This document shows positions 43,878 to 62,931 of a stretch of 64,000 nt of DNA, one piece after another. The position numbers and the translations under genes are program-made. Source of the DNA: Ktedonobacteraceae bacterium. GTDB lineage: Bacteria > Chloroflexota > Ktedonobacteria > Ktedonobacterales > Ktedonobacteraceae. The stretch is taken from the NCBI GenBank assembly GCA_035653615.1, contig DASRBN010000042.1, positions 62,001 to 126,000 on the forward strand. Direction: 5' to 3'. Each line of letters opens with the position of its first letter. Position 1 is the stretch's first letter. Under the pieces are notes generated by a model, which did no database searches, was not told the origin of the DNA, and saw only the letters and a list, made by a program, of their open reading frames with translations.

Positions 43878-43918
43878 GGCCCTAAATGAGCGAGCGTGAC
43901 ATGAGCAGCAAAGTAGCT
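43878..43918 (+). repeat. Terminal inverted repeat, left end of element 1
   Basis: It shares AAATGAGCGAG and GCAAAGTAGCT with the right end of the same element, and 30 of 41 positions overall. Differences gather at positions 3-6 and 18-30. Confidence 0.8.
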
Positions 43919-43978
43919 CTCATGCCATTTCTTCACTCAGAGGCTAAAGTCCCATTTGAGGGCGTTTTACTTTATCGA

Positions 43979-44025
43979 CCTCGTAACAGAAATCTTGTAC
44001 CAGAAAATGACATCCGGTACAAGTT
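43979..44025. other. Tyrosine recombinase site near the left end of element 1
   Basis: Core at 43992-44025: a left arm ATCTTGTACCAGAA, spacer AATGAC, and a right arm whose complement is AACTTGTACCGGAT (11 of 14 matches). The extra half-site CTCGTAACAGAA lies directly outside it (from 43980). It is 114 bp from the transposon tip. Confidence 0.65.
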
Positions 44026-44249
44026 CTTCCTCTACTCATCTTCGCTTGTACCTGTGACTGTCCGTGCTATGAGGAAGATCATAGGAGAAAAGTCCTGCTC
44101 GGCTTATGAATGCTTGCCCGAATAGCACTTCTTCGATAGAGTTTAGGCAAACGCAGCACAGAGAGTTACGGAATTAGAGCAACTGCGTCATCTTGTATAT
44201 AGAAGTATATATATGTATGTTTGATTTAAAAAGGAAAGGGAACATATCG

Positions 44250-44576
44250 ATGGCGAACACTCACAACTCTCTCGTATTTTTCGTAGCCACACGTATTCCG
44301 AACACGAGCATCCTCAAGATTTGTACTGAGGACGAATATTGGGCAAGAGGAGGACCGGACCAGATGCCCAACTGTTCCTGGGAGAAAGTTAGAGTTACTA
44401 GCAGGGAACAGATGGCAGCCTGGGTGAGTGCAAAAAGTCGTTGGTTAGTAGAAGCGTGGGGTGACCTGAATCGCCATTATAGCCTTCCTGACAGATCAAT
44501 TGCGGAGAAACAAGAGAGTCTTCGCATCATGCGAGAATGTGAAGCCATTATGAAAAGTTTGCAGATTGCTCCGTGA
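44250..44576 (+). CDS. Hypothetical protein in transposon
   Basis: 108 residues from the ATG at 44250, with AAAGGAAAGGG upstream. It has no recognised domain, no signal and no membrane helix. The sequence is rich in Trp and charged residues (CSWEKVRVTSREQMAAWVSAKSRWLVEAWGDLNRHY). It lies between the left end and tnpA of element 1, and no counterpart is seen at this place in element 2. It could be an accessory gene. Confidence 0.5.
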   Translation: MANTHNSLVFFVATRIPNTSILKICTEDEYWARGGPDQMPNCSWEKVRVTSREQMAAWVSAKSRWLVEAWGDLNRHYSLPDRSIAEKQESLRIMRECEAIMKSLQIAP

Positions 44577-44639
44577 GAGATTTTTGCACGAATCCTGGCC
44601 CTACGGCCTACCTCACATACGAGAGAGTCAAGGCATCGG

Positions 44640-47600
44640 ATGAAACGTACCTGGGATATTGAAGAGTTAATTGAACATTTTACGCTGGTTCCTCCCGAGA
44701 TGGAACTCCTCGGGAACAAGACCGGGGCAACACGTCTCGGCTTCGCGCTGCTGCTCAAATGCTTTCAGCTTGAAGGGCGATTCCCCGCCGCCAAACATGA
44801 GATTCCGCGATCTGTGATTGACTATGTTGCCCACCAGCTGAAGCTGGACGCAGCGCTCTTCAGCGAGTACGACTGGGAAGGGCGCACCATCACGAATCAT
44901 CGCACGCAGATTCGCGAGCATTTCGCGTTCCGCGATGCCACCGCGTCGGATGGGGAGGAGGTGGCGAACTGGCTCGTCTCCACCGGTCAGGCAGCCGTAC
45001 CCCACCTGGAGCGACTCAAGGCGATCGTGTACGCGCGCTTTCGTGAACTGCGTCTGCTTCCCCCAACACCAGAGCGCATCGAACGGCTCATCCACTCGGC
45101 ATGTGCCACCGCTGAACAGCAGTTCTTTGTCGAGACCTTCGCACGACTCTCTGACACCTCCCGGACGCGGCTTGATGTATTGCTCAACAGTAGCCTGGAA
45201 GTAGAAGAGAGCGAGGAGATGGAGGCACCAGACGAGACAGGAGAAGATGCCGAGGAAGATGAGGAGACCATGCCACTCGACCATGTGACCTGGCATGACC
45301 TCAAGCTCAATCCCGGCCCCGTTGGGGTGAAAAGTGTGCGCCAGGAGCTCGCCAAGCTGCGCACCCTGGAGCACCTTAAACTACCAGAGGACCTCTTCGG
45401 CACTGTGCCGACCAGAATCCTTTCCCGCTATCGGCAGCGTGCCGCTACTGAGACTCTCCATGAGCTGCGCCGTCACCCTGATGCCACGCGCTACGCACTG
45501 CTGGCTGCATTTTGCTGGCAGCGCCGGCATGAGTTGCTTGATACCTTGATTGATCTCCTCCTGCTCATTATTCACAAGATTGGGACCCGTGCGGAAAAGC
45601 GGGTGGACAAAGAGCTGTTAGAGGACTTCAAGCGGGTCGACGGGAAAGGACGCTTGCTCTATCGGGTGGCTGAAGCCTCGCTTGCCCAGCCAGACGGAAC
45701 GGTGCGTGAAGTGGTGTTCAAGGTGGTGGGAGAGCAGCGCCTCAAGGATATCGTCAAGGAATACAAAGCCAGCGGCAGCGCCTATCACGCACAGGTGCAT
45801 ACCGTCATGCGTGCCTCTTATCAAAGGCACTATCGCCAGGTCATCCCGCTCTTGCTATCTCTGCTCGACATTCGCTCCAACAACGACGTGCATCGCCCGG
45901 TGATCCAGGCCTTAGCGGTGGTCAAGCGGTACGCGCGGACCTCGCTTGTCTACTATCCACTCGACGAGCAGGTTCCCCTGGAAGATGTGGTGAAGCCGGG
46001 CTTCCGCGAGCTGGTGGAGGAGAAGGATGCGCAGGGAGAGCTGCGCATCAATCGCATCAATTATGAGCTGAGCGTTCTGGAAGCACTGCGCGAGAGGCTG
46101 CGCTGTCGAGAACTGTGGGTGGCCGGCGCCGGCAAATATGGCAACCCGGAAGATGACCTCCCGCAGGACTTTGACGAGCAGCGCGCCAGCTACTACCAGG
46201 CGCTCTCACTCCCGCAAGATGCGGAGAAATTTATCGAGGCGCTGCAAGCCGAGATGCGCGAGGCCCTGGCAGCCTTCAACCGCTCGCTTCCGCAGGAGAA
46301 GGTCCGCATCCTCGACAGAGGCGGCGGCTGGATCTCCCTATCCCCGCTGGAGCCACAAGAAGAGCCCAGGAACCTGGGCCGGCTCAAAGGGGAGATCGGC
46401 AGGCGCTGGCCGATGACGAGTTTGCTTGATATCTTAAAAGAGGCGGATTTGCGCCTTGATTTCACGCAGCACTTCAAAAGCCCTGGAACCCGTGAAGTCC
46501 TGGATCGCGAGGTACTGCGCAAGCGGCTGCTGCTCTGCCTCTACGCTATGGGGACCAATACCGGACTCAAACGGGTGAGCGTCGGCGAGCATGGGGAAGC
46601 CTACCAGGATCTCCTCTACGTGCGCCGGCGCTACATTCAGAAAGACCAGCTGCGTGCCGCTATAGCAGATGTGGCTAATGCCATCTTCCGTGTTCGTCGG
46701 GAAGACATCTGGGGAGAAGCTACCACGACCTGCGCCTCGGACTCCAAGCAATTTGGCTCCTGGGATCACAATTTGCTCACCGAGTGGCACTTGCGCTACG
46801 GTGGCAAGGGCATCATGATCTATTGGCATGTGGAGAAGCATGCCGTCTGTATCTACTCCCAGCTCAAGACGGTCTCCTCCTCCGAAGTGGCAGCGATGAT
46901 CCAGGGAGTGATGCGCCACTGCACCGATATGCAAGTCCAGAAGCAGTTCGTGGACTCGCATGGGCAAAGCGAGATCGCCTTTGGCTTTTGCAGGCTGCTT
47001 GGTTTCGAGTTGATGCCCCGCCTCAAGAACATCTACGAACAGAAACTTTGCCTGGTGGATGCAGCCGATGCTGAACAGTATCCCAAACTGCGCTTGATTC
47101 TCTCGCGTGCCATCAACTGGGACCTGATCCGTCAGCAATATGATCAGATGGTCAAATACGCCACCGCGCTACGTCTGGGCACGGCGGAGACCGAAGCGAT
47201 TTTGCGCCGCTTCACTCGCACCGGACTTGCCCATCCCACCTATCGGGCCTTCCTGGAACTAGGCAAGGCGGTCAAGACCATTTTTCTCTGTCGCTACTTA
47301 TCCTCAGAGGCACTCAGGCGGGAGATTCATGAGGGACTCAACGTCATTGAGAACTGGAATGGGGCGACGGCCTTTATCTTCTATGGGCACGAAGGAGATT
47401 TCCAAACCAACCGGCTCGATGAGCAAGAGTTAGCAGCCCTTTCCCTCCATCTGCTCCAAATATGCCTTATCTATATTAATACCCTTTTGGTGCAACGGGT
47501 CCTGACTGAGCCGAAACACTTCCAAGCTATGCAGCCAGCAGACTGGCGTGGGTTAACACCGCTCTTCTATCAGCATGTCAATCCCTACGGAACCTTTCGC

Positions 47601-47651
47601 CTCGATATGAACGAGCGGATGCAGATTGACGAGGAAGAAGCAACCGCCTAA
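44640..47651 (+). CDS. tnpA: Tn3 family transposase TnpA (element 1)
   Basis: 1003 residues, the normal Tn3 TnpA size. The N-terminal third ([36 protein letters not shown]) is the DUF4158 DNA-binding part. The catalytic DDE triad fits Asp701 (CASDSKQF), Asp772 (FVDSHGQSE) and Glu904 (NVIENWNG). It binds the 38-41 bp inverted repeats and drives replicative transposition. The frame is intact. The protein is clearly related to the one at 59578 but differs at many positions, so the two elements are not a recent duplication. Confidence 0.96.
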
Positions 47652-47682
47652 TGAGTGTGAATTCAATAAATTAGGAGGGAAA

Positions 47683-48528
47683 ATGATGCCTAACAAAATT
47701 TATTATTATGGTCCCCCTCCCAGTCGTGAAGACATGGAGCGTGGATTTAACGTCCTCAAATTTGGAATCGGCTGCCTGCTATTTGTCGGATTCTGGGGAA
47801 TGGTGATAGGGGGATTGTGGTCGGCAATAGGAGCTTTTCTCAATCATGTTGGAGCAGGCGGCTTGATTAATCGCATTGGAGCCTTTTTTGAAGGTATAGG
47901 ACAGCATAATACTACCGATCTACTTGTACTCCTTCTGCTCTTATCTCTGGTTTGTCTTGCCCTTTTCTGGGCGGTTTTCGTCATGAAAAGAAGGGAAAAT
48001 AAAATCGGCTGCATAGCGTTTATAGCCCTCTGTCTTGTAATTCTGGTTGGAAGTATTGGCATTAGTGGATGGGAGCTTTTACAATCAGGGACAGCACATA
48101 GTAATGCAGTATCAATAAAGAGCAATGGATTGTATAAGGGTGAGTCTTGGACAGGCCAGTTAGATTTATATGGAGGGGGAGGGCAACACCTGATCCCGGC
48201 TACACTAACAATTCAATCGATAGAGGGTGGCGGTTTTAAGGGAACAATTAAGGAACCTTGTAGATTTCTTAGCGTAGGTGGGACTTTTGGGAGCAGTATA
48301 TCCAAATTTAGTTCCGATGTCCAATCAGAGCTACAAGATGTGATTAGCAGCTATGGCGACGGTGAGTATGTAGAATTTACATTTAGTTCAGACACATGCC
48401 AGATCACACATGATATCGGTCAGTTCACATCAGTCTTGGGACAGAATGGAGAATTGAATGGTAATATCTACCCTTTAAATTATCCTTTTGGCTCAATCGG
48501 TACGTTTAACCTCCAGAAAGTTATATAG
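47683..48528 (+). CDS. Membrane protein of unknown function, transposon cargo
   Basis: 281 residues from the ATG at 47683 with AGGAGGG upstream. Three hydrophobic helices are in the first half (IGCLLFVGFWGMVIGGLW, LLVLLLLLSLVCLALFWAVFV, IGCIAFIALCLVILVG). The second half is a soluble, strand-rich domain outside the membrane (WTGQLDLYGGGGQHLIPATLTIQSIEGGGF). No family was recognised. It follows tnpA after about 30 bp. Confidence 0.65.
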   Translation: MMPNKIYYYGPPPSREDMERGFNVLKFGIGCLLFVGFWGMVIGGLWSAIGAFLNHVGAGGLINRIGAFFEGIGQHNTTDLLVLLLLLSLVCLALFWAVFVMKRRENKIGCIAFIALCLVILVGSIGISGWELLQSGTAHSNAVSIKSNGLYKGESWTGQLDLYGGGGQHLIPATLTIQSIEGGGFKGTIKEPCRFLSVGGTFGSSISKFSSDVQSELQDVISSYGDGEYVEFTFSSDTCQITHDIGQFTSVLGQNGELNGNIYPLNYPFGSIGTFNLQKVI

Positions 48529-48675
48529 GGTGAGGGAACTAGCCTCGTCTAGCATCAGTTTACCCTACTTTTTCGAGTTAGCAAATGCCCTCTTAAGATG
48601 TAAAAGTTGTTCAGGAAAAGCAGATGTGCAACACGTTTGTAATCAGCCCAAAACAGTAAGAAATGGAGCGGAGCT

Positions 48676-49650
48676 CTGATTATCAAACCACACATTACTT
48701 CCATACGATCCCTGGCATGGTCACCGGATGGGACGCGTATTGTTTCGGGCGGTGGTTCAGATTCTTTTTTATATCCGCCGTGCCCGATATTGATATGGGA
48801 AGCTGTCGAGCCTCGTTCTCTGTTCCAGTCCAAAGGGCGAACCCTCATTACCTATGAAGGACATGGCGAGTATCAGGTAAATGCAGTAGCATGGTCGCCA
48901 GAGGGCAAATATATTGCATCTGGAAGTGAGAAACAGACTACAGCTCATGCAGAGACTCTTCAGGTCTGGAATGCCAACACCGGACAAATCACAATTGTCT
49001 ATCGTGGTCATGATGATCAAAGTGTATATGCCTTGGCCTGGTCACCGGAAGGAAAACGGATTGCGATTGCCTTTGTAGGCCTAGCGCAGGTATGGGAAGT
49101 CGCCACTGGAAAGGTTCTAACAACTTATAGAGGCCATGATTCCTCACAAATGTCCACCTCAATACGCCCTCGGGTAGACTCCATTGCCTGGTCGCCGGAT
49201 GGAAAGTACATTGCCTCCGCTACTCAATATGATAATTCCGTCGCAGTATGGGAAGCAGCTACCGGGATGCTCCAGTCTAAGTATAGGCACCACTGCCATG
49301 GAGTATGTTCCATATCCTGGTCCCCTGATGGAAAATTCATCGCAATAGGAAGCACCGATCGCGGAGTGTATATATGGGATGTCACTACACAAGTCATACG
49401 TTTGATGCATAGCCGTGCCGATGACAGGCGAGAGGAATTGGTAGTAGCCTGGTCGTCTGATGGTATGCGTATTGCTTCTAGCCTCCACAACAGCATAGAG
49501 ATTTGGGATTCTTTGACAGGGAACACTCTTTTTACATATAACGGGCATCCACGTCTCAGTAAAGTGGATGCTTTGGCCTGGTCTCCTGATGGAAAACGGA
49601 TTGCTTCTGGTGGAACCGATCGTCAAATACACGTATGGGAACCAAAGTAA
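48676..49650 (+). CDS. WD40 repeat protein with a non-canonical start
   Basis: A full seven-bladed propeller can be read: seven WSPDG-type motifs, from LAWSPDGTRIVSG (near 48712) to LAWSPDGKRIASG near the end. The only canonical in-frame start is a TTG at 48790, which would cut off the first blade. Upstream, after a stop at 48634, there is no ATG, GTG or TTG, but CTG at 48676 has GGAG 7 nt before it; ATT at 48679 is also possible. A frameshift from the ATG at 48663 is the other explanation. WD40 proteins are scaffolds; no partner is evident. Confidence 0.65.
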   Translation: MIIKPHITSIRSLAWSPDGTRIVSGGGSDSFLYPPCPILIWEAVEPRSLFQSKGRTLITYEGHGEYQVNAVAWSPEGKYIASGSEKQTTAHAETLQVWNANTGQITIVYRGHDDQSVYALAWSPEGKRIAIAFVGLAQVWEVATGKVLTTYRGHDSSQMSTSIRPRVDSIAWSPDGKYIASATQYDNSVAVWEAATGMLQSKYRHHCHGVCSISWSPDGKFIAIGSTDRGVYIWDVTTQVIRLMHSRADDRREELVVAWSSDGMRIASSLHNSIEIWDSLTGNTLFTYNGHPRLSKVDALAWSPDGKRIASGGTDRQIHVWEPK

Positions 49651-49894
49651 AGATCGCAAAGATCAACACATTACTACTAGTATTCGGTGCAAAATGTCCT
49701 GGGAAGAAGATTGAGAGCAAGCAAGCGATGTAATAATGATGGGTTTTTCTTGTCCTATATAACTGAGGCTGATCTTGCCCTTTTTCTTCTTTCCCGCGCC
49801 TAAAAATCGAATGCGACGTGGTGTGTTTCTTATAACAAGGTAAACGCCTTCAAGTGGCGTACAAGACCTCTAGAGTGGCTTCACACTTCCAGGC

Positions 49895-50848
49895 CTAGCC
49901 CCTGAGTCCCTTTAACTTCTCTTTCACCTGGGCTCGACTGACCTGCGTATAGCGAGCCGTAGTCTGAATCGCAGGGGTCCCTTTGACCGTCACATGTCCG
50001 AGATAGTAGCCGATCTCTTCCAGCATCCATCCTGCTTCTCTTGCTCGATGGGCAAAATCATGCCGCAGATCATGAAACGAGAGGTCAGCAATCAGTTCCC
50101 ATTGCTCCTTATTTGCCTGCCGTTTCAGCGACCGGAACCAGTGATGAATGCCCGCCTCGGTCAACTGTGCGTGACGCTGCGACGTAAAAACATATGGACT
50201 TTCGGGATCACGACCACCGTGTCGAAGATAGTCATAGAGGGGATGCCTCGCTTCATTGAGCAGATCAATATCACGGAACTTCTCCCCTTTGTGTCCCACA
50301 TGGAGCCACCCAATCTTCGGCCCGATATGGGCATGCTCCATGCGTAAATATGCGATGTCGCTCACGCGGCACCCCGCCCAGTACCCCAGGGCGAAGATCG
50401 CTTTGCCGCGAAGGTCCCCATCTTTTTCAATGAGGCTACGCAAGACAAAGCGCTGATCCGGTGACAGGATTCGGGGAGCAAGCTGCTGCTGGACCTTGAT
50501 TTCTACCCCACGGGTTGGGTTCCGCCTCAGTACCTCTTTGTCTTCAATCAACCATTGGCAAAAATGATTGATGACCGACTTGACACGGGTGCAGTGGCTC
50601 ACGCTATAACCCTGCTCCTTGAGTGAAGAGAGATACAACTCCACTGAGGTCTGGGTCAACTGAGTCGGCTCGAAGTGTCTTCCATGCCCTGGCCGCTCGG
50701 CGATCCACTGCGTACATTGGCGGAGAATACGCAGATAGGCATCAATAGTGGCGGCATCTTTCTGCGCCAGTCGCGCTTGACGATACCCCTCAATCCACAC
50801 CTCCGCTCCTGATTGAGGGAAGGGAATCACGTTTGAGGACGCACTCAT
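49895..50848 (-). CDS. Tyrosine recombinase (integrase family), element 1
   Basis: 317 residues. An N-terminal SAM-like DNA-binding domain (about 15-110) and a catalytic domain. All catalytic residues are in place: Arg161 (GCRVSD), Lys187 (GHKGEK), His259 and Arg262 (HDLRH), His285 (LGHVT) and Tyr300 (ARYTQV). It is a close relative of the recombinase at 54085 with the same length. It takes the place of a resolvase in this transposon, comparable with TnpI of Tn4430. A site with its half-sites lies upstream of the gene. Confidence 0.94.
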   Translation of the reverse strand: MSASSNVIPFPQSGAEVWIEGYRQARLAQKDAATIDAYLRILRQCTQWIAERPGHGRHFEPTQLTQTSVELYLSSLKEQGYSVSHCTRVKSVINHFCQWLIEDKEVLRRNPTRGVEIKVQQQLAPRILSPDQRFVLRSLIEKDGDLRGKAIFALGYWAGCRVSDIAYLRMEHAHIGPKIGWLHVGHKGEKFRDIDLLNEARHPLYDYLRHGGRDPESPYVFTSQRHAQLTEAGIHHWFRSLKRQANKEQWELIADLSFHDLRHDFAHRAREAGWMLEEIGYYLGHVTVKGTPAIQTTARYTQVSRAQVKEKLKGLRG

Positions 50849-50975
50849 TTGTTGTCATCTTCCCCTTGAAATATTTCTGGTACGTGTTTTTGCGCTCCAT
50901 TTTTGGAGAGCGATCAACACTAATACTCCCTCTCTGAGCACACATTCGCCAAAATAGAATTGCCACTCATCGAGA

Positions 50976-51022
50976 AACTGGTAGCAGAAACTACTTTCTG
51001 GTACATCTTTTCTGCTACGAGT
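50976..51022. other. Tyrosine recombinase site near the right end of element 1
   Basis: Core at 50976-51009: arm AACTGGTAGCAGAA, spacer ACTACT, and a right arm whose complement is AAGATGTACCAGAA (10 of 14). An outward half-site (complement ACTCGTAGCAGAAAA) is at 51008-51022. Another half-site is at 50874-50887, just before the recombinase start. Confidence 0.7.
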
Positions 51023-51102
51023 CAGTATAGCAGGGGCTGAACGAAAAGACAAGAGAGGCGATGTCATAGAAACAAACACCTGCTCCTTTAGAAAAGCTCA
51101 TC

Positions 51103-51143
51103 AGCTACTTTGCGGGCTATGACAGTCTCGCTCATTTTACCCC
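51103..51143 (-). repeat. Terminal inverted repeat, right end of element 1
   Basis: Read inward it begins GGGGTAAAATGAGCGAG and ends GCAAAGTAGCT. It matches the left end of the element at 30 of 41 positions and the ends of element 2 in GGGGTAAAATG and GCGA. Confidence 0.9.
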
Positions 51144-51278
51144 TACGACTTTGCCTGGTACTTCTGCCATGACCAGGATGTCTACGACAACGTGATCGCC
51201 GCGCGACGGGATCATCTCCGGACCGATGACGAGCGCAAGCGCATTCGCATCCAGCTCGTCGAAAAGGAGAAAGGATGA
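51144..51278 (+). pseudogene. 3' remnant of a gene cut by the transposon end
   Basis: An open frame starts exactly at the transposon tip and runs 44 codons (YDFAWYFCHDQDVYDNVIAARR, then DDERKRIRIQLVEKEKG) to a TGA at 51276. The stop overlaps the ATG of the next gene (ATGA), as in an operon. The reading frame has no start of its own, so the 5' part is probably lost. The family is not recognisable from this tail. Confidence 0.65.
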
Positions 51279-52204
51279 GCGCGATGGCAGACCCACCAAA
51301 CCACCTCTCGCAACAATCGCTGGCACCCTCGCCCACATCCTCCAACCGGCGCGCCAAGTGGGTCACGTTCGCCAGATGGACAGGCATCCTCGCCTTGTTT
51401 TACCTCCTCGGTCCCGTTGTCTTCTTCGGTCGCGACACGCAGCAGAAAGCCGGTGGGCGCGTCTGGCAAGCGGGGGAACGCTGGGGGCATGTCTCCTGCT
51501 CCGCTTACCTCTCGCTGCTCTGGTATGTCCCGGTGGTGGTGTTTCATAGCGCGCTGGCCGGATTCTGGCTTGCCATCTTTGAAGGCCTCGCTGCGCTGCT
51601 CCACCTCTCTTTCTTGAGCGTTCTGGGAGGGGTGGCCTTCTGGCTGCCTGTCCCGTCCAGCATGCTGCTGCGCTGGGTGCTGGCGCTGCCGCTCACCTCC
51701 TGGATCGCACTCCTGCTCGAAGAGATCCGGCCACAGATCACCTGGGTAGCGAAGCGCGTGGTCTCGCCCGACGAACACCTGCACCTGGCCGCTGAGCAGG
51801 AGGCCCTAGAGAAAAAACGCCAGGCGGCCCTCGCGCGCAGTACTTCTCGGGCGCAACTCACGGCGAGCAGGCGGCCTGCCTCCACGGATAAGCGGCCTCG
51901 CCCATCCACCGCAGGGGCGGCAAAACCGGCGACTCCACAGGCTTCGCCTACAGGCTCGCTATGGGATCAGATCGATTGGAGCCAGGTGCCAGATGACCAC
52001 CCGCTGAAACAGGCCGCCTTCGAGGAAGCAGAGCGGCAGGCAGCAGTGCGCCGCAACGCTGAACGCACACGCTCAGTACTCTCCCAAATGGAAAAGCAGG
52101 AAGCCCGAACTCCGCCGGGGCAAGGCGCGACCAACGAACCGGCCTCTCCCCAAGCTCCAGCCTACAACTGGGACGAGGGTGAGGGAACCGTCACCGAGAG
52201 CTAG
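51275..52204 (+). CDS. Membrane protein with long polar tail, captured operon
   Basis: 309 residues. The first 160 have four or five hydrophobic segments (FARWTGILALFYLLGPVVFF, SAYLSLLWYVPVVVFHSALAGFWLAIF, LLRWVLALPLTSWIALLL). The remaining half is a Pro/Ala/Gln-rich charged tail. No family was recognised. It starts by overlapping the stop of the remnant gene and ends 13 bp before the next gene. GC content and codon use look higher than in the chromosome around it, which fits foreign origin. Confidence 0.65.
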   Translation: MSAMADPPNHLSQQSLAPSPTSSNRRAKWVTFARWTGILALFYLLGPVVFFGRDTQQKAGGRVWQAGERWGHVSCSAYLSLLWYVPVVVFHSALAGFWLAIFEGLAALLHLSFLSVLGGVAFWLPVPSSMLLRWVLALPLTSWIALLLEEIRPQITWVAKRVVSPDEHLHLAAEQEALEKKRQAALARSTSRAQLTASRRPASTDKRPRPSTAGAAKPATPQASPTGSLWDQIDWSQVPDDHPLKQAAFEEAERQAAVRRNAERTRSVLSQMEKQEARTPPGQGATNEPASPQAPAYNWDEGEGTVTES

Positions 52205-52217
52205 AAAGGAGTGCATC

Positions 52218-53448: not shown

Positions 53449-53769
53449 TCACATCCCCCAGCTCGCGCACGCGTTGTGACGCGACTTTCGGCATCACATG
53501 TGCTGGCCAGGCCTCCATCTGTGACACCGACATCGCGCCACAGCACGCGGCCCTCACCCGAATCGCTTGTTTCTCTGTCTGACAGGCCCGAATGAGGTGT
53601 CTGACACCTGCTTCCTTCTCCTTCATCCCTGCGCCACAAGCGCGCCACGACGGAGTGTGACTCCGGATGTTCCGTCACATTCGCGGCGCCGGCGCGCCAC
53701 TGTGACAGCAGATCGCACGTCACAGTTCACCAGGTCCCGCACAAGCGTGACGCCAGGTCTGGGGTCACA
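53449..53769. repeat. Noncoding cluster of TGTGAC/GTCACA motifs
   Basis: Seven exact TGTGAC or GTCACA copies lie at 53475, 53520, 53656, 53674, 53701, 53719 and 53764, plus partial copies near 53449, 53494 and 53747. The array fills a 400-bp region with no plausible gene (53361-53776). It could be a replication or partition locus, a transfer origin or a regulator-binding cluster of the captured replicon. Confidence 0.55.
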
Positions 53770-53776
53770 CTATGGA

Positions 53777-53817
53777 GGGGTAAAATGCGCGACGGTGACA
53801 TGCGGGGCAAGATAGCC
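53777..53817 (+). repeat. Terminal inverted repeat, left end of element 2
   Basis: It begins GGGGTAAAATGCGCGACG and ends GGGGCAAGATAGCC. Compared with the right end, only two bases differ (G/A at position 26 and A/G at position 36). Confidence 0.95.
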
Positions 53818-53900
53818 GTCTACTTGCTTTCTCCATCACCTGACCATTTTTCCCACAAACTGCGTTCCACTTGCCTTTTCCCCGTTTCCCTGCTACACTG

Positions 53901-53947
53901 ACTCGTAGCAGAAAACTCGCGGCAGAAGGTACCTTCTGCCGCGAGTT
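53901..53947. other. Tyrosine recombinase site near the left end of element 2
   Basis: Core at 53914-53947 is a perfect palindrome: arm AACTCGCGGCAGAA, centre GGTACC and the exact complementary arm. The half-site ACTCGTAGCAGAAA (53901-53914) lies directly outside. A third half-site is at 54045-54060, just before the recombinase start at 54085. The same layout occurs at the recombinase side of element 1. Confidence 0.85.
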
Positions 53948-54084
53948 GAACGAGGAAGAAGAGGCAGAGAGGAATCGGTTCACGCTCAAATCCTCTTTGG
54001 CGTTCTGAAGTTTTTTCTTGTTCACTGGAAAAATGAGCGAGCAAAACTCGCGGCAGAAAATTTTGAAGGGAGAAATGAGCGAGA

Positions 54085-55038
54085 ATGAGGGAACCATCAA
54101 ACGTTATTCCTTTCCCTCACTCAGGGGCCGAGGAATGGGTTAGAGCATTTCACCAGGCCTGTCTTCTACAGAAGGACGAGGCGACGATTGACGCGTATCG
54201 GCGTATTCTTCGCCAGTTTACCACCTGGGTTGCCGGGCGACCTGGGCATGGCAAGCAGTTCCGTCCTGAGCAGCTGACAAGAACGGTAGTAGAAGTCTAC
54301 CTGTCTGAGCTCCAAGAGTGTGGATACAGCGTGAGCCATCGCATCCGTGTCAAATCGGTCATCAAACACTTCTCCCAATGGCTGATCGACGAGCATGGGG
54401 TACTCGGGCGCAACCCGACCAGCGGGATAGAAATACGGGCCGAGTCTCGGCTTGCTCCTCGCATTCTTTCTCCAGACCAGCGCTTTGTGCTGCGCAACCT
54501 TGTCGAGAAGTCTGATGACCCGCGCGGCAAGGCCCTCTTTGCCTTGGGCTACTGGGCAGGGTGCCGGGTTAGCGACGCCGCCTATCTCTTGATGGAACAC
54601 ACGCATATCGGGCCGAAGATCGGTTGGCTGCACGTGGGACACAAAGGCGAGAAATTCCGCGATATTGACCTGTTGAACGAAGCACGCCGTCCACTGTATG
54701 ACTACCTTCAGCATGGGGGGCGTGACAAGGCCAGTCCGTATGTCTTTACCTCCCAGAGGAGTCCAAGGCTTTCAGAAGATGGGATTCACCACTGGTTCCG
54801 CACGCTCAAAGGACAAGCGAACAAGGAGGAGTGGGAACTTGTCGCTGACCTCACCTTCCATGATCTCCGCCATGATTTCGCCCATCGCGCACGTGAGGCT
54901 GGCTGGACACTTGAAGAGGTTGCTTATTATCTCGGGCATGTGACTCTGAAGGGTACCCCTGCCATCCAAACCACGGTGCGCTATACGCAAGTCAGCCGGG
55001 CGCAGGTGAAAGAAAAACTCAGGCTGCTGAAAGGATAG
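54085..55038 (+). CDS. Tyrosine recombinase (integrase family), element 2
   Basis: 317 residues with an N-terminal DNA-binding domain and a catalytic domain holding Arg161, Lys187, His259, Arg262, His285 and Tyr300. It is very similar to the protein at 49895, from SNVIPFP at the start to VSRAQVKEKL at the end. It would act on the adjacent palindromic sites to resolve cointegrates, or on sites at both ends. The ATG follows ATGAGCGAGA, with GGGAG further up. Confidence 0.94.
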   Translation: MREPSNVIPFPHSGAEEWVRAFHQACLLQKDEATIDAYRRILRQFTTWVAGRPGHGKQFRPEQLTRTVVEVYLSELQECGYSVSHRIRVKSVIKHFSQWLIDEHGVLGRNPTSGIEIRAESRLAPRILSPDQRFVLRNLVEKSDDPRGKALFALGYWAGCRVSDAAYLLMEHTHIGPKIGWLHVGHKGEKFRDIDLLNEARRPLYDYLQHGGRDKASPYVFTSQRSPRLSEDGIHHWFRTLKGQANKEEWELVADLTFHDLRHDFAHRAREAGWTLEEVAYYLGHVTLKGTPAIQTTVRYTQVSRAQVKEKLRLLKG

Positions 55039-55135
55039 GGTCTGAGCAGTCCAGGTAAAAACAAGAAAGTCCTCCTCCTCTCAGTAAAAGCTTTCTTGTT
55101 TTGAGTTGGAGCGAGTGAGTTCCGCGTTGGCTTTT

Positions 55136-55720
55136 TCACTCCAGACCTTGAATGGTGATTGACCAGGAAGCTTGAGTCTCGACATAGAGATAGAAGTGAC
55201 CCGACTGGTATTCTTCAGCGCTGCCAGAGACGCCAGGGCTGATGGTTGTTTGACAATTGTGTACACCCATTGGCCCGCCTAAGAGATTACCATTCCAGGT
55301 ATATGGATAGACCAGCACACTATAATCTCCACCGTATGGAGCCGGAGCGTTCAGGGGGCATTGATTCACGATAATCTTCCAGTCGCCTGGCGCTGCGAAT
55401 ACAGAAGTCCTATAATCGCCTCTGTGAGTAAACGTGTCCAGCGTTTTCCATGTTGGTCCTTGCGAAGCTGGCTTGCTTGTTACGGAAACTCCCCCGTTGT
55501 TCATAGCAGCACCAGACATCAATGCTTTAGTAAGCCCACCGCCAACGACAAGCACTCCAACGATGAGGATGAGTAATGCCCACAACGGAAGGCTTACCCT
55601 CTTTGGCGGAGAAGGTGGTTGCTGTTGGTATGATGGTTGATACTGGTTTGGTTGTGGCTGCGTTCCCCACCTCGGATCATAAGACCGCCCCGTATATGGT
55701 GATTGTGGTTGTTCGTTCAT
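55136..55720 (-). CDS. Membrane-anchored secreted protein, transposon cargo
   Basis: 194 residues from the ATG at 55720 (GAGAGGGCAA upstream), preferred to an in-frame ATG at 55906. A Pro/Gln/Tyr-rich start (about 1-45) precedes a helix (PLWALLILIVGVLVVGGGL). The outer domain has two Cys (NQCPLN, HNCQTT) and a strand-rich pattern ending in GHFYLYVETQASWSITI. It may form a jelly-roll or Ig-like fold. Function unknown. Confidence 0.65.
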   Translation of the reverse strand: MNEQPQSPYTGRSYDPRWGTQPQPNQYQPSYQQQPPSPPKRVSLPLWALLILIVGVLVVGGGLTKALMSGAAMNNGGVSVTSKPASQGPTWKTLDTFTHRGDYRTSVFAAPGDWKIIVNQCPLNAPAPYGGDYSVLVYPYTWNGNLLGGPMGVHNCQTTISPGVSGSAEEYQSGHFYLYVETQASWSITIQGLE

Positions 55721-56018
55721 GATTGCTTGCCCTCTCGAAAACACGGGTATAAACAAAGTGTTCAAGTAGTCTTCCTCAGAAGATGAGGTTGAGATTATAT
55801 TGAGCATGCTCACTTGCATCTCTTCCGTCAAATCCCTCCATAACAACAGGAGAACAGCTCGTTTGTCTTCACTCCCTATGCCAAAATCTACTATTCGCTC
55901 CTTCAATTCTTTATTATCAATGCAATGCCCATGTGTGGAAAGGGAAGAACGGTTACAATTCGGTTATGAACAGGTTAAGATTTGCCTCCATAAGAGGCAA
56001 AAATCTGCCCCTGTTGGC

Positions 56019-58478
56019 TCACGACGTTCCTTTCCAAATCGTTCCTGTATGAGAACCAGGAGCGTTTCTCATCGCATAACATACTTGCGCGGTTGGACAC
56101 TGTATACCCTCGGTATTCATATCTACCTGGTTGAACTGCCATGTCATCCCACCATCTTGTGTGATGTCAAAACCTCCCTGCGCTCCCAGGTAACAGACAC
56201 GATCACTGGTACAAACAGCACTGGTAGCCAGAGGAGGATTTGCAGCTGTTATGGCTATCCAGGATTGTCCGCCATCATGTGACGCTTCAAGATTACAGGG
56301 TACCTGGAAACCGCAATCCTCGGTCGAAGTCACGATGAGTTGGGAACCTGCATAAAATAGAGCCGGTCCATTGTACATGGATGCGGTAAATGTTGCCGGA
56401 CTCTGGGTCCAACTCTGTCCCCCATTATCAGTAAGCCATAATGCATAGGCTTGTTGAGGTTCACCTGCTGAGTTGTTTTCGGGCATTCCTCTTGCCGCCA
56501 ACACGATGCATGAAGACGCATCTAAGCAATCAAAAGAGACCAGAGGATCGGTCGTTGATGGAGAAATATCAACGACCGATCCTCCCGCAATGGAGCTTTG
56601 ATACAGATGCGGACCGGAATTGGGACTGTTGCTTTCAGCGTACAAGAAATAACAGGCACGCTGAGAAAAGCATTGAACGTTCGTTACTGCTGTCCAGGGA
56701 ATACGTGAAGATGAGGATGGTAGACGTGCCCAATGTCCGCCACCATCACTCGTTTCATCAACAAAGCCAGCGTTGACAACTCCACCACCTTCACCGGTCG
56801 CATAACCCCAGGTGATGCAGCTGTCTGCCTGGAAACACTTGAGGAACACATGCGGAGCACAAAAAGAACCACAATTCAAGCTCGACAGCTCCGACGAGAG
56901 GTCAAGTACCGGCACCCAATCATTTCCCGCGTCGGTGGTTTTCATCATCAATCCAGTAGTAGTGAGCATATAGCAGGTAGCCACAACCGGGCAATCGAGA
57001 GCCTGAACTCCTCCTGAGCTGTTACTCGTTACAGGGGTGATATTACTCCAATGCTTAATGACCGCTCGATTTTCATAGTCATAGACGGTCTGACCATAAT
57101 AGTCACTCACATGTGAGATCATCGCATGTGGGTCATCATATAAAGCGGTGGCAGAGTTCGAGCCTTGCATATAATGGATATGCATGCTGTCCTGCTGTAC
57201 GTAGTCTACTGAAAACTCGATGGAACCACTCGGCATTTGCGCTAAATTGACTGGCAGTTCGGAGTAGAGGGATCTCTGTAATCCCCTTCCATCCAATGTT
57301 GAAACATTTTCCACAAGCGGGGCACGATGGGTATACCAGCTTTGTGCTGAAATAGCGACTTGACCAATTCCAAACGCAGGAGAGAACACATAGACCCGGA
57401 CGATGACGGAGAGTGGAGTGGTCTTACCGGGTGTTGTGACGGAGATCGCAACAGATGGAGCAAGAGCCAGGATATAGGCAAGTTGTTTGATGGCCTCTGT
57501 ACTGGTTAAGATGGCTCCATGTCCGGCTGGAAATCCGTCATGCGGATGAATCGGGAATGAGAATGCTTGTTGAAACGCTCCAACCACAAACTGCGTTGAC
57601 TCTTCATCTTGTGCTATCGTATGATTGCCTGGATTGGGAAGGCAGAGCGCTAAGTGGTACAGGCAATCCTGCGTATTACCGAAAGTGTAGACAGACGTCC
57701 CCATGGCCGAGAGAATATGCACTACACCTGTTGCGAACGTCTTATCTTTGGCAATCGCATTGAGCCGAAGAGCAACAGATGCTCCAAAATAAGCCAGGGA
57801 TTTGAAATGGCAAGCACCTGGCAGTTGCTGATCACCGAGAAATGCAAGCGTATCTGAGCTAAAGCCGTGTAACGGGCTATCAATCGTGACGATTTTGGTA
57901 ATCAGGCCAGGCTGGTTCTTGTGGGCATCAACATAGTCAAGACCGCCCAGCAGGGCAACCAATCCGCCGAGACTGTGACCGACTAACTCAAAGTGAGCAT
58001 TTGGGTATACTTGGCGATAGGTGTCTAAGAGATAAGCGAGCGATTGGCTGTCCTGCTCAAGTGAGCTACCGTTCGGTTGGCAGCTCGTGTAATTTTCAGG
58101 TATCCAGTGTCCAGACTCCATCTTTCCACTTGGTTTGCTTGAGCTGTATGTGTAGCTATACTCAGCGATATCAAGTTGCGAATTGGAGCTACCTGCACTT
58201 GCTCCATTACATCTATGAGCATACGGATTGGTGTATCCGTACTGCTGAACCAGTTGATCCATGAGGGGACCAAATCCCTCTAATTGGCAATTAGTTATGG
58301 ATGTATTGAGGCCACCTAACAACACAACCACATTTCGCGGTGAGTTATTCACCACCGGCTGTTGAGAATTACAGGCAGGTAAGGCGCTACCAAATAGGAG
58401 AATCAGGAGAGTAACCATGCCGAATCGAAATTGTCTGCTGGATAAGCGCCCATTCCACATACTTCTACTATACTTCAT
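56019..58478 (-). CDS. Lipoprotein with alpha/beta-hydrolase domain and Ycf48/BNR-like repeats
   Basis: 819 residues. A signal segment ends at a lipobox-like ALPAC. Residues 45-350 look like a lipase/esterase: VVVLLGGLN near the start and the nucleophile Ser in LVGHSLGGLVALLGG, with later HDGFPAGHG possibly supplying the His. A middle strand-rich domain follows. The last 300 residues have repeats such as TTDAGNDWVPVL, DNGGQSWTQSP and HDGGQSWIAI, typical of BNR/Ycf48 propellers. The fusion is unusual; a surface esterase is the best guess. Confidence 0.72.
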   Translation of the reverse strand: MKYSRSMWNGRLSSRQFRFGMVTLLILLFGSALPACNSQQPVVNNSPRNVVVLLGGLNTSITNCQLEGFGPLMDQLVQQYGYTNPYAHRCNGASAGSSNSQLDIAEYSYTYSSSKPSGKMESGHWIPENYTSCQPNGSSLEQDSQSLAYLLDTYRQVYPNAHFELVGHSLGGLVALLGGLDYVDAHKNQPGLITKIVTIDSPLHGFSSDTLAFLGDQQLPGACHFKSLAYFGASVALRLNAIAKDKTFATGVVHILSAMGTSVYTFGNTQDCLYHLALCLPNPGNHTIAQDEESTQFVVGAFQQAFSFPIHPHDGFPAGHGAILTSTEAIKQLAYILALAPSVAISVTTPGKTTPLSVIVRVYVFSPAFGIGQVAISAQSWYTHRAPLVENVSTLDGRGLQRSLYSELPVNLAQMPSGSIEFSVDYVQQDSMHIHYMQGSNSATALYDDPHAMISHVSDYYGQTVYDYENRAVIKHWSNITPVTSNSSGGVQALDCPVVATCYMLTTTGLMMKTTDAGNDWVPVLDLSSELSSLNCGSFCAPHVFLKCFQADSCITWGYATGEGGGVVNAGFVDETSDGGGHWARLPSSSSRIPWTAVTNVQCFSQRACYFLYAESNSPNSGPHLYQSSIAGGSVVDISPSTTDPLVSFDCLDASSCIVLAARGMPENNSAGEPQQAYALWLTDNGGQSWTQSPATFTASMYNGPALFYAGSQLIVTSTEDCGFQVPCNLEASHDGGQSWIAITAANPPLATSAVCTSDRVCYLGAQGGFDITQDGGMTWQFNQVDMNTEGIQCPTAQVCYAMRNAPGSHTGTIWKGTS

Positions 58479-58622
58479 GTTTTCATCTGCTCCATAATAG
58501 ATACATGTGTTTCATAGAGAATCGCCTTATGATGGCAAACTCAAGACATGTGGAAGGATTCCGGTAAGCCATAAAAAGACATATAGCCAATTACCCACAC
58601 AGGTATCCGATTAGTGATATTA

Positions 58623-59216
58623 TTACCAATCACCAGGGCCATACGGTTCCGAATCAGAGCCAGGTTTAGGCTCACGCTCTCCGAATAATCTGCATTGTTC
58701 CGCACGCTGTTCGCTTAGTACTCGCTCGAGTCTAGCTCCGGCCCCTCCCCATTGAAGTCGATATTCCTCATTTGCTCGCGCAAGGGCAGCGTGTATTTCC
58801 TCATCGCTATATCCTAAACTCGCCAAGTAAGCTGCTGGTGAGCGTATTCCATTGTCAGGATCAAGTGCCTTTCGCGCTAGAGCAATGGCCGACTTTTGCC
58901 TGCGTTCTGCTTCTGTTTCCACTACAGCTTTGCTTCCGCGGTTTGGAAGTCTACGAATACCGCTACTGAGACACGCCAAACCAGCGATAAACATCACCAG
59001 GAATGTACAGCCTGCTACTGCAAGGTTCCCCCATATCTGATTGACACCCGGGCCTTCCTCAACAAGGAGTGATGCCGGTGCAATGCCCATAGTTGCATGC
59101 GAGGCGAGCGTACACAGGCATATGAATGCACCAGGAACCAAAAGAATCCCGAAGAGAATCAAGACAATGGCTGTGGCAAAACCGTGATTTTCATGTGAAC
59201 TGCGTCTGTCATTCAT
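58623..59216 (-). CDS. Two-helix membrane protein, transposon cargo
   Basis: 197 residues. Two membrane helices (ATAIVLILFGILLVPGAFICLC and LAVAGCTFLVMFIAGLACL), then a cytoplasmic helical tail with a UBA- or SHOCT-like element (LASLGYSDEEIHAALARANEEYR). A WGGAGARLERV stretch and an acidic end follow. No known family. Confidence 0.6.
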   Translation of the reverse strand: MNDRRSSHENHGFATAIVLILFGILLVPGAFICLCTLASHATMGIAPASLLVEEGPGVNQIWGNLAVAGCTFLVMFIAGLACLSSGIRRLPNRGSKAVVETEAERRQKSAIALARKALDPDNGIRSPAAYLASLGYSDEEIHAALARANEEYRLQWGGAGARLERVLSEQRAEQCRLFGEREPKPGSDSEPYGPGDW

Positions 59217-59577
59217 AAAAGAGTTTCTCTCAGGTGAATGTGGCGATGCTTCTCCGCTGTTTTCATCGATCGTGAAATGTTGCCAGAACCGTGCATTGAA
59301 GAGCCACTCTAACTACTTCTTCTCATTTCAACGAATAAAAAAAATGGCCTCGCTATCATAACGGGCTATGCTTCAAAATGTAAATGCACTGATATTTTTA
59401 GGACTTTCTTCCCTTGATTCTATGCGTTTGCCAGTACCAATGCTTGGAGGAGAACATTTTTAGGCCATCCCTCAAGCCAATGCTGAACAGGCTCATACGA
59501 GTCCTTGGTCCAGTATAATGATATGGGCAGGCAATACCTGTGCGGAAGAGACTTCGTCTTGCCCTCCGAAGAACTCC
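59217..59577. other. Intergenic region in element 2
   Basis: 361 bp without a credible gene. A possible minus-strand promoter for the 58623 gene is TTTACA (59384-59379), 18 bp, TATGAT (59360-59355). Confidence 0.35.
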
Positions 59578-62565
59578 TCACGCCGATAGTGCTTCCTCGA
59601 TCGGTATTCGTTCAGCCAGGTCCAGACGGAACGTCCCATAGGGCGTCACATGACTGTAGATAAGCGGGGTGAGGGCACGCAAATCCTCCTTCTTCATCTG
59701 CTGGAACTGCCTGGGATCTGAGAGGACTTGCTGGATGAGCAACGTATTGACGTAGACCAAGCAGATTTGCAATAAGTGGAGCGAGAGTGCCGCCAACTCT
59801 TGCTCATCGAGACGGTTGGTGGCAAAATCACCGCTCTTGCCGTAAAAGATGAAACTGTTGGCCCCATTCCAGTTCTCAATGACGTTGAGCCCCTCGTGGA
59901 TCTCCCGCCTGAGTGCCTCTGATTCTAAGTAGCGGCAGAGGAAGAGGGTTTTGACCGCCTTGCCAAGCTCCGCAAAGGCTTGATAGGTCGGATGTTGCAA
60001 ACCCGTCTGCGTAAAGCGGCGCAGGATCGCCTCGGTCTCTGCCGTCCCCAGCCGCAGCGCAGTCGCATACTTGATCATCTGGTCGTACTGCTCGGTGATG
60101 AGGTCCCAGTTGATGGGCCGCGAGAGAATAAGCTGGAGATTGGGGTAGGCCTCTGGTTCTCCAGACTTTGGTCGATAGAGGCGTTGGGCATAGATGTTTT
60201 TGAGTCGAGGCATCAGCTCAAAGCCCAGGAGCCGACAGAATCCAAAGGCGACCTCATTCTGACCATGCGTATCGACGAACTGCTTTTCGATCTTCATCTC
60301 GGTACAATGCCGCAGCACACCTTTGATCATAGCTGCCACCTCCGAAGAGGAGCAGGTTTTGAGTTGGGAGTAAATGCAGGTCGCGTGTTTTTCGACGTGC
60401 CAGTAGATCATCACGCCCTTGCCCCCATAGCGCAGATGCCACTCGGTCATCAAGTTCTGATCCCAGGCCCCAAATTGCGTCGAGTCCGAGGCACAGGTCG
60501 TCGTCCCCTCGCCCCAAATGTGGGGCAAGCGTGCCTGGAAGATGGCGTTGGCGACATCGATGATGGCCGCACGCAACTGGTCCTGGTGCAGGTAGCGGCG
60601 ACGTGTGTAGAGGAGTTCCTGGTAGCTTTGCCCATGATCGCCCATGCTGACGCGTTTGATCCCGGTATTGGTCCCCAATCCATAGAGACACAACAGCAAA
60701 CGTTTCTGCAAGGTCTCCCGGTCGAGTTTTTCGCGGGAGGCGGGACTCTTGAAGTGCTGGGTGAACCCGATGCGCAGGTCTGCCTCCTTCAAGATGTCGA
60801 GCAAATTCGTCATGCCCCAGCGCCGCTGGATTTCTGCTTTCAATTTGCGCAAGTACTGTGGTTCAGCTTGGGGCTCCAGCGGCGAGAGATGGATCCACCC
60901 GCCGTTCTTCTCTAAGAGACGCACCTTGGGAGCAAGCTTGGGCAGCGCGTGGTCGAAGGACTCCAGCGCGGCGATCATTTCGGCTTGCAGAGATGCAACG
61001 AACGCCTTCGCCTTTTCGGGGAGATTCAGCGCTTTGTAATACTCCTCTCGCTTCTCCTCAAAGTCTTTGGGCAGATCATCGTCGGGATTGCGGTATTTGT
61101 TGGCCCCCTCCACCCATAGCTCACGGCAGCGCAGGCCATCGCGTAAGGCATCCAGGACACAGAGTTCATAGTTCACCCGATTGATGCGTTGCTCACCGTC
61201 CTTCTTCTCGACCACCAACTCCCGCCACATCGCGCGTACCACACCATCAAGGGGTACCTCCTCATCGGCAGGATAATAGGCACCAGGCGTGCCTGCATAC
61301 CGTTTGATCAGATCCAGGGCACGCACGACGGGCTGGTGTTGGGTGTTGGTGGAGCGCACCTGAAGCATATTGACTAAAAGCGGCACCATGCGGCGGTAAT
61401 GGTCACGATAGGAGGAGCGCATGTGCAGGTAGACTTGCTGCTGGTAGCTGCCCTTGGTCTTGAACTCCGTGATCACGGCTTGGCAGGTGGCCTCGCTCAT
61501 GACCGGAAAGATCCCCTCGCGAATGGTTTCTTCAGGATGGGCAAGCGCAGCTTCGGCTACTTGGCACAATAGGCGTGGTTTATTATCGACCCGTGCTTCA
61601 TCGATATGCTGCTTACTGACTCGTTTATCTGCCCTGGCACCGATGCGATGGACGACCAAGAGCAAGAGGTCCACCAGGCTGTCAGTCACTTCGGCTGTAC
61701 GCTGGAGGCAGAAAGCGGCAAGCAGCGTATAGCGCGTGGCGTCAGGATGTCGCCGTAGTTCGTAAAGCGTCTCCGTCGCCGCACGCTGTCGGTAGAGGGT
61801 AATCACTGCAGGCGACACATCCCCAAAAAGGTCGGCAGGCAGCGCTAACTGTGAGAGCATGCGCAGCTTGTCAATCTCAGAGAGGACGCTTTCCAGCCCG
61901 ACTGCCCCTGGGTTGGTTTTCAAATCCCTCCAGGTAATGACTTCGCGACGGGGCCCACCTGTGGAGGATGGCTCATCATCGGCTGGCTCGTCCTGATCCT
62001 CCATCTGTATGCTCCGGTCAAGCAACGCATCGAGGCGGGTGCGCGTCTCTGGAGAAAGACGCTGCAAGGCGTTGGCAAACAGGGCTTGTTCATAGGTCGC
62101 GCAGGCGGAGTGTATCAGACGCTCGATACGATCCGCGGTGGGAGGCTCGATCTTGCGTTCACGAAACTCGGTGAGTACCTTGGCTTTGAGATGATCGATA
62201 TGCTGATCCCTCGACAAGTGCGTGTTGACGAGCCAGGCAGATATGGCATCGCTATCAGCAGCCGTGGCTTCGCGGAACCCCAACTCCTCTCGGATTTGAG
62301 CACGATGCAATTTGATCGTGCGGCCCTCCCAGTCATACTGCTGGAACAAGGCCGCATCCAGTTTCAATTGGTGAGCAAGGTAGTCCACGACGGAGCGGGG
62401 GATCTCATATTTCGCATGGGGAAAGCGCCCTTCCAGTTGAAAGCACTTGAGCAGGATGGCGCAGCCCAGGCGCGTTGCGCCAGTCTTATTCGTGAGAATC
62501 TTCAGGTCATCTTCCACGAGCGTGAAGTGTTCAATCAATTCTTCAATGTCCCATTGGCGTTTCAT
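59578..62565 (-). CDS. tnpA: Tn3 family transposase TnpA (element 2)
   Basis: 995 residues, intact. It shares the whole layout with the TnpA at 44640: [13 protein letters not shown] at the start, the Asp of CASDSTQF, the Asp of FVDTHGQNE and the Glu of NVIENWNG as the DDE triad. Many substitutions separate the two, which fits the difference in inverted-repeat sequence between the elements. It starts about 370 bp inside the right end. It has no resolvase partner other than the tyrosine recombinase of the element. Confidence 0.96.
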
Positions 62566-62759
62566 CTATCTCTCTCCATTTCTTGAGAAAACTTCCGTGG
62601 GGTGGCTCCACAAACGTATTCGTTGCCTTCCAACCCGCATGTACTCTAGTGGGAAGAAACGCCAGAAGACAGGCATAGTGGAAGAGAAAAGGACTTTTTC
62701 CTTACTGGTATCCCCTCGGGACAAGATACCTCAGCCAATACTTCATCATCATAGGTATA

Positions 62760-62806
62760 AACTCGTAGCAGATGACAGCATCTGCTACGAGTTTTCTGGC
62801 GCGAGT
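62760..62806. other. Tyrosine recombinase site near the right end of element 2
   Basis: Core at 62760-62793: arms AACTCGTAGCAGAT and its exact complement around the spacer GACAGC. A half-site (complement ACTCGCGCCAGAAAA) lies outside at 62792-62806. The core is 138 bp from the transposon tip. It lies beside tnpA, not beside the recombinase. Confidence 0.85.
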
Positions 62807-62890
62807 AGATATTCCAAGAAATCTGTTTCATTTCCCATAAGAAGCTCGATGAACAAGGGTAAGAGGGAGAAAGCTGTGGATCGAGGAAGA

Positions 62891-62931
62891 GGCTACCTTG
62901 CCCCGTATGTCACCGTCGCGCATTTTACCCC
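62891..62931 (-). repeat. Terminal inverted repeat, right end of element 2
   Basis: Read inward it begins GGGGTAAAATGCGCGACG; 39 of 41 bases match the left end at 53777. Confidence 0.95.

Follow-up and report, generated by a model that had tools for sequence, protein, structure and literature searches.

A putative TnpI recombinase site near both ends of a Ktedonobacterial lineage of Tn3-family transposons

Two transposons of the Tn3 family, here called A and B, lie in a 64,000-nucleotide stretch of the genome of a Ktedonobacteraceae bacterium (contig DASRBN010000042.1; the whole stretch is hereafter the window), and both carry a complete site of the tyrosine-recombinase type inside each of their two ends. 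A and B belong to a Ktedonobacterial lineage of Tn3-family transposons that encode an Xer-like tyrosine recombinase, TnpI, in addition to the transposase TnpA. Judging from sequence comparisons, we lean towards the view that TnpI works at both ends, resolving cointegrates at the end where its own gene starts (the tnpI end) and controlling tnpA, or the TnpA protein, at the opposite end (the tnpA end).

At each of the four ends a 34-bp core is formed by two inverted 14-bp half-sites (h2 and h3) that are separated by 6 bp, and an accessory half-site (h1) stands as a direct repeat immediately outward of the core. We scanned every position of the 64-kb window by geometry only, requiring a 14-bp h1, a 14-bp h2, 6 bp and an inverted 14-bp h3, and counting the matches of h1 with h2, h2 with h3 and h1 with h3 (maximum 42). 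Only four places reached at least 29 matches (36, 32, 31 and 31), all of them at transposon ends, and the next best had 27. That the four sites are chance palindromes is a negligible possibility and is already refuted, because none of 40 first-order Markov shuffles of the window gave 29 matches or more, against four observed exactly at the four ends, and because the sites recur in independent elements. The h1 half-sites start 100 (A, tnpA end), 120 (A, tnpI end), 123 (B, tnpI end) and 124 bp (B, tnpA end) inside the termini, so that the distances from terminus to core are 114, 134, 137 and 138 bp. An earlier, sequence-only reading of this DNA had placed the four cores at the positions listed in Table 1, 114-138 bp inside the ends and with an additional half-site outward of each, and in these respects the scan and the mapped termini agree with it. 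Its description of the sites as 34-bp palindromes holds for the core geometry at all four ends, but a perfect palindrome is found solely at 53914-53947. A half-site profile run over A and B recognises three half-sites per tnpA end, whereas the tnpI ends alone have a fourth (h4), which the earlier reading had overlooked and which points inward at the tnpI ribosome-binding site just before the start codon; apart from one borderline match inside the tnpA gene of A, no further half-site was found in the two elements.

We sought relatives in 47 genomes of the class, and the set used for tnpA ends (A-G) comprises elements whose TnpA is at least 60% identical to that of another member. Element C (L025, 7648-15900), a third closely related copy in the same genome as A and B, has the triple site (h1 plus core) at both ends and a perfect target-site duplication, AAATA; its cargo consists of a Ser/Thr kinase-HEAT protein gene together with sigma and zinc-finger genes. 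Element E (L028), from another genome, likewise has sites at both ends and a perfect target-site duplication (TTGAT), with a PAS histidine kinase as cargo. Element D (G021) is spread over two contigs, which presumably belong together, since an IS21-type insertion interrupts its tnpA and leaves istB-like and istA-like parts at the contig ends (translations inspected by eye). In total, the triple site has been found at seven of seven tnpA ends (A-G) and ten of ten tnpI ends (A-F, H-K): A-E show it at both ends, F is represented by a site of each type, G by a tnpA-end site and H-K by tnpI-end sites. The distance from terminus to h1 is 123 or 124 bp at 11 of the 13 intact, recognisable ends, the exceptions being the two ends of A (100 and 120). 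The loss of the tnpA-end sites in related elements had been named beforehand as the outcome that would speak against them; they are kept, as is their inverted orientation relative to the tnpI-end sites, which the sequence-only reading had seen in A and B. The triple site is absent from 11 sister Tn3 elements with TnpA about 53-59% identical and without a related TnpI. Among these sisters, which were also examined for palindromes of other sequence near the ends, L091 (G046:C405) has at about 968-1001, 154 bp before tnpA, a 34-bp palindrome GACGTGCCGGAGAAGGAGACATCTCCGGCACGTT that differs in sequence, is not conserved in the near relative L092 and has no TnpI relative on its contig, resembling in these letters the site of a different recombinase.

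Each end can be described as a module composed of the terminal inverted repeat (TIR), about 80 bp of freely diverging DNA, and then h1 and the 34-bp core at a fixed distance. When the TIR-to-site spacers of the two ends are compared within one element, no similarity is detectable in A (z -0.3) or B (z 0.4), and B nevertheless keeps its 123/124-bp spacing from terminus to h1 although its two spacers are unrelated. Among the tnpA ends of A-D, the mean pairwise identity is about 73% for the site and about 32% for the spacer. The half-sites of tnpA and tnpI ends also have lineage-specific letters in common, namely ...CAGAA in A-D and, for the most part, ...TAGAA or TAGAT in E-G. Because sites and spacing persist despite decay of the spacer, and because the half-sites carry the letters of the tnpI ends, there is good evidence in the sequences that the element's own TnpI would bind the tnpA-end site. 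A contrary view is that both ends arose by duplication from a single long terminal repeat, with the tnpA-end site as a functionless passenger. The spacers of both end types are indeed homologous in the E-H lineage and in D (z 8.5 in E; identical in D), as this view expects, but in A and B they resemble each other no more than by chance, whereas the sites persist, and the better conservation of the site in A-D extends to its distance from the terminus; we regard the passenger view as very improbable.

The tnpI-end site appears to be this lineage's version of a usual resolution site (irs), and the tnpA-end site the unusual part, because a core followed by an h4-like half-site precedes the recombinase gene in relatives, and because a Paenibacillus element of the Tn4430 type (L115) has nothing at its tnpA end. 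Plasmids of Nostoc, Bacillus and Paenibacillus larvae have before this gene a core with a 6-bp spacer and a direct half-site 86-87 bp downstream of h2, near the gene start, and transposons of Ammoniphilus and Rubrobacter show the same core with an h4-like half-site at 86-87 bp. The h4 of the window lineage is present at all tnpI ends of A-D and I-K and lies 121-122 or 130-132 bp from h2, these two classes being about one helical turn apart. The last base of a candidate promoter of the form TTGNNT-17-TANANT directly adjoins h1 at the intact tnpI ends and, among the tnpA ends, in D-G; most of the matches are individually weak, and the constant position is the notable part. On Nostoc sp. ATCC 53789 plasmids (L048, 1282-4054; L054), and on several plasmids in all, a recombinase of the same family, 64% identical, is divergently oriented beside a DDE transposase and an AAA ATPase, and the family seems therefore to serve non-Tn3 transposons too.

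The elements carry two features of TnpI-resolved transposons, namely a tyrosine recombinase with the full catalytic set (PF00589, alignment, and XerD, PDB 1a0p, as the closest solved structure) and a core with accessory repeats upstream of tnpI (h1-core-h4). In Tn5401 and TnBth4 of Bacillus thuringiensis, an irs lies upstream of tnpI, promoters lie within the irs and expression is modulated by TnpI, and Tn5401 has in addition a TnpI half-site, a copy of its direct repeat DR2, near each end, not a whole core; a 190-member Tn3 set contains three TnpI elements (PMC7157771). The window elements resemble Tn5401 and TnBth4 in combining a Tn3 transposase with TnpI and in the irs upstream of tnpI, and Tn5401 also in having TnpI-type sequence near both ends, which in A and B is recognised by sequence likeness only. 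They differ from Tn5401, which has a single half-site per end and a separate internal irs, in that a full core with an accessory half-site is present at both ends, the one at the tnpI end being the irs itself; half-sites in A and B are confined to the ends. Moreover, tnpI and tnpA of Tn5401 are collinear and share one promoter region, whereas those of A and B converge from opposite ends. The earlier statement that no family with this layout has been described was thus too strong, since Tn5401, with a half-site near each end, is a partial precedent (PMC7157771); in the PubMed Central literature we found no paper combining Ktedonobacter, Tn3 and transposon.

Tn4430-type elements share with the window lineage the core of two inverted half-sites and a direct half-site near the tnpI start. 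Their irs (inverted repeats IR1 and IR2, direct repeats DR1 and DR2) has, however, 4 bp between 12-bp repeats instead of 6 bp, with DR1 and DR2 both inward, and the recombinase is only about 25% identical to TnpI of B. Such elements have collinear tnpI and tnpA and a single irs with two inward direct repeats, whereas A and B are convergent and have one direct repeat inward, one outward, and a site at both ends. The Paenibacillus element L115 shows the textbook order IR1-IR2-DR1-DR2, with a DR2-like copy 88 bp from IR1; an approximate Tn4430 TIR used as a query gave no match in the plasmid set. Tn4651 and other TnpS-TnpT elements are also members of the Tn3 family with a tyrosine recombinase, but they depend on a helper protein and on an rst site located centrally, between the divergent genes tnpS and tnpT (PMC7157771), an arrangement that A and B do not have. 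A Tn3 element of Ammoniphilus (L046, 7905-13975) has a TnpI that is 66% identical and is preceded by h1-core-h4; it differs in collinear tnpI and tnpA, perfect 37-bp TIRs and the lack of a TnpI site near either end. The window lineage is a variant within the TnpI class of Tn3 transposons and no separate kind.

In the reading that we prefer, the tnpI-end site would be the main resolution site and an autoregulatory operator, and the tnpA-end site a second site for the same TnpI that serves mainly to place the protein beside the far end, in front of tnpA. There TnpI may control transcription of tnpA, the action of TnpA at both ends, or both, by analogy with Tn5401, in which TnpI is reported to help TnpA at the ends, and in a cointegrate the site might also undergo crossover with its counterpart in the other copy. 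With tnpA starting separately at the far end, control of both genes by TnpI would call for a second TnpI site. Crossover between the two different ends of an element would normally be prevented by their unequal 6-bp regions, but where these agree, as in D, ends might be swapped. Several points weigh against this reading. In A, B and C no promoter stands out at the h1 position of the tnpA end, which gives no sign of an operator role in these three; h4 is found at none of the seven tnpA ends and is missing from the tnpI ends of E, F and H as well; and dual resolution sites would yield an identical anatomy. Indeed, the tnpA-end core may chiefly be a second, redundant resolution site, with crossover between two tnpI ends or between two tnpA ends giving the same resolved products. 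The tnpA ends have the complete core geometry of two arms, a 6-bp crossover region and h1, with arms matching at 14 of 14 positions in B and C, and like ends in the two copies of a cointegrate share their crossover region by construction. Yet the DR2-like h4, which accompanies the core before the recombinase gene in most relatives, is missing here, and redundancy alone leaves the fixed distance of 123-124 bp from the terminus unexplained, so that we consider this alternative rather unlikely.

The sequence-only reading had proposed that, beyond resolving cointegrates, the sites could permit the interior to be inverted or to be swapped as a whole between elements. Tyrosine recombinases are normally blocked from productive exchange by unequal crossover regions, and the 6-bp regions at the tnpI and tnpA ends of one element are unequal in A (AGTAGT/AATGAC) and B (GGTACC/GCTGTC), as are those of the two ends in C (GATGCT/AGTGCT) and E (ACGTGG/ACTGAG). 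Inversion between the ends of one element is therefore unlikely, and as an ordinary function in the window elements it is disfavoured; the spacers at the two ends of A and of B are unrelated, with no sign of common ancestry, and thus no recent end-for-end exchange is visible in them. Suggestive support for exchange comes from D alone, whose crossover regions are identical at both ends (GATGCT) and whose two ends agree at 136 of 138 positions in the outer 138 bp, at 29 of 34 in the core and at only 15 of the first 48 bp inside. At its tnpA end, h2 and the crossover region equal those of the tnpI end of C and h3 that of the tnpA end of C, which is the hybrid expected if TnpI had recombined the tnpI end of one copy with the tnpA end of another; the letters suggest that ends have been exchanged in D. 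In a tree of the outer modules, the ends cluster by lineage and not by type: a single clade of tnpA ends is rejected with p 3e-5 when the TIR is included, with p 0.04 for the spacer only and with p 0.01 without the decayed tnpA ends of A and B. The ends have accordingly evolved together within lineages, although the value of 3e-5 is partly the expected joint evolution of two TIRs. On the other side, three of the five core differences in D fall in h2, and the stretch of identity accordingly breaks off 12 bp outside the expected crossover; gene conversion would give the same pattern; the outer spacer of D is overall nearer to the tnpA end of C (59%) than to its tnpI end (45%); the flanks of D (AAGTT/TACCT) form no matching target-site duplication; and D is a single case with few informative letters. 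Since the cargo lies between tnpA and tnpI, an interior swap would also not move it separately. Selection of the sites for inversion or interior exchange thus seems improbable to us. In element F (G032), considered as a candidate for a break at the site, the outer flank has been replaced while site and tnpI remain about 94% identical to E, but the shared stretch extends several bases past h1; an insertion or deletion is likelier, because the break is not at the crossover.

A further reading, to our mind less likely than not, is that both end sites take part in recombination and that the 6-bp crossover region works as a code which pairs like with like. Mismatched regions would then limit the sites to cointegrate resolution, while matched ones, as the hybrid end of D suggests, would permit TnpI to swap whole terminal modules (TIR, promoter, operator), both within an element and from one element to another. 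If true, this would be a Tn3 transposon re-shuffling its own ends by site-specific recombination, and end exchange, if real, would provide a mechanism by which the termini of these transposons evolve jointly. Tn3 resolution and Tn3 transposition are generally regarded as modules apart, and only Tn5401 has tied the resolvase to the ends. A complete recombinase site at a fixed distance from both termini makes this link directly testable with small DNA constructs, and the TnpI class is widened by a group from another phylum with a different gene order.

The identity of A and B rests on features collected in Table 1. TnpA of about 1000 residues scores 896 (A) and 898 bits (B) against NF033527, whose cut-off is 500 bits. 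The TIRs correspond to the usual type of about 38 bp starting with GGGG, which is found at three of the four termini, the left end of A being degenerate. The catalytic residues R, K, HxxR, H and Y are aligned in TnpI of A-D. In both elements, tnpA and tnpI start near opposite ends and point inward, with the cargo in between. The 5 bp flanking A (ATGAA/TACGA) show no target duplication, and those flanking B (ATGGA/ATGAA) match at four of five positions.

Table 1. Features of transposons A and B in the window (positions count from the first letter of the window)
Feature	Position	Strand or orientation	Basis or remark
Element A, Tn3-family transposon	43878..51143	tnpA end left, tnpI end right	TIR profile matches 43878 (+), 51143 (-)
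A TIR, tnpA end	43878..43919	+	outermost bases degenerate, GGCCCT
A tnpA end, outward accessory half-site h1 ACCTCGTAACAGAA	43978..43991	+	geometry scan
A tnpA end, 34-bp core (h2 - AATGAC - h3)	43992..44025	+	arms 11/14
A tnpA, 1003 aa, Tn3 transposase	44640..47651	+	NF033527 896 bits; PF01526
A cargo, WD40-repeat protein	48790..49650	+	PF00400
A tnpI, 317-aa tyrosine recombinase	49895..50848	-	PF00589 and catalytic-residue alignment
A tnpI end, inner half-site h4 ACACGTACCAGAA, before tnpI start	50875..50887	-	half-site profile
A tnpI end, 34-bp core (h2 - AGTAGT - h3)	50976..51009	-	arms 10/14
A tnpI end, outward accessory half-site h1 GACTCGTAGCAGAA	51010..51023	-	candidate promoter TTGTCT-17-TATACT ends just outside
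A TIR, tnpI end	51102..51143	-	TIR profile
Element B, Tn3-family transposon	53777..62931	tnpI end left, tnpA end right	TIR profile
B TIR, tnpI end	53777..53818	+	TIR profile
B tnpI end, outward accessory half-site h1 GACTCGTAGCAGAA	53900..53913	+	candidate promoter TTGCCT-17-TACACT ends just outside
B tnpI end, 34-bp core (h2 - GGTACC - h3)	53914..53947	+	arms 14/14, perfect palindrome
B tnpI end, inner half-site h4 ACTCGCGGCAGAA, before tnpI start	54046..54058	+	half-site profile
B tnpI, 317-aa tyrosine recombinase	54085..55038	+	PF00589 and catalytic-residue alignment
B cargo, 819-aa protein, weak lipase-like stretch	56019..58478	-	PF01764 5.5e-05
B tnpA, 995 aa, Tn3 transposase	59578..62565	-	NF033527 898 bits
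B tnpA end, 34-bp core (h2 - GCTGTC - h3)	62760..62793	-	arms 14/14
B tnpA end, outward accessory half-site h1 TACTCGCGCCAGAA	62794..62807	-	geometry scan
B TIR, tnpA end	62890..62931	-	TIR profile

The 5 bp outside the left end of A (43873-43877) and those outside the right end of B (62932-62936) are both ATGAA, while the two flanks of A itself disagree, and A, the spacer and B may have moved as a single 19-kb composite. The DNA rightward of A (from 51144) opens in the middle of a reading frame whose 5' part is not seen to the left of A. In a search for an empty site by means of the flanking genes, the right one had no relative in the class and the left one belonged to a many-copy family. A third open reading frame of 317 residues in the vicinity (41688-42641) encodes a pseudouridine synthase and not a recombinase.

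An orphan triple site, AACTCGTAGCAGAA ATCTCGCGGCTGAA gttgtc ATCTGCTGGGAGTT, at L108 9943-9990 on the minus strand (about G000:C42:14943-14990), is probably a relic end; no TIR, tnpI or tnpA was detected within 10 kb of it. An h1-core-h4 array of other specificity, CTTGTCGGAGAA, lies at L111 5658-5705 (G025:C1:7465658), with no recognisable TnpI gene adjacent. Viral contigs scanned with TnpA and TnpI yielded no relatives. A more distant clade of TnpI (about 54% identical, L030-L032) has no related Tn3 transposase nearby, and in one of its members (L031, 965-3645; G034) a HEAT-repeat protein gene follows the recombinase gene. In element E, a large serine recombinase gene (L028, 16139-17848) is inserted in the TIR of the tnpA end; the outer piece of the TIR and the target-site duplication are found 2 kb away. 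At about 925-1012 of L029, two termini of the Tn3 type stand apparently back to back with 5 bp (TTCAT) between them.

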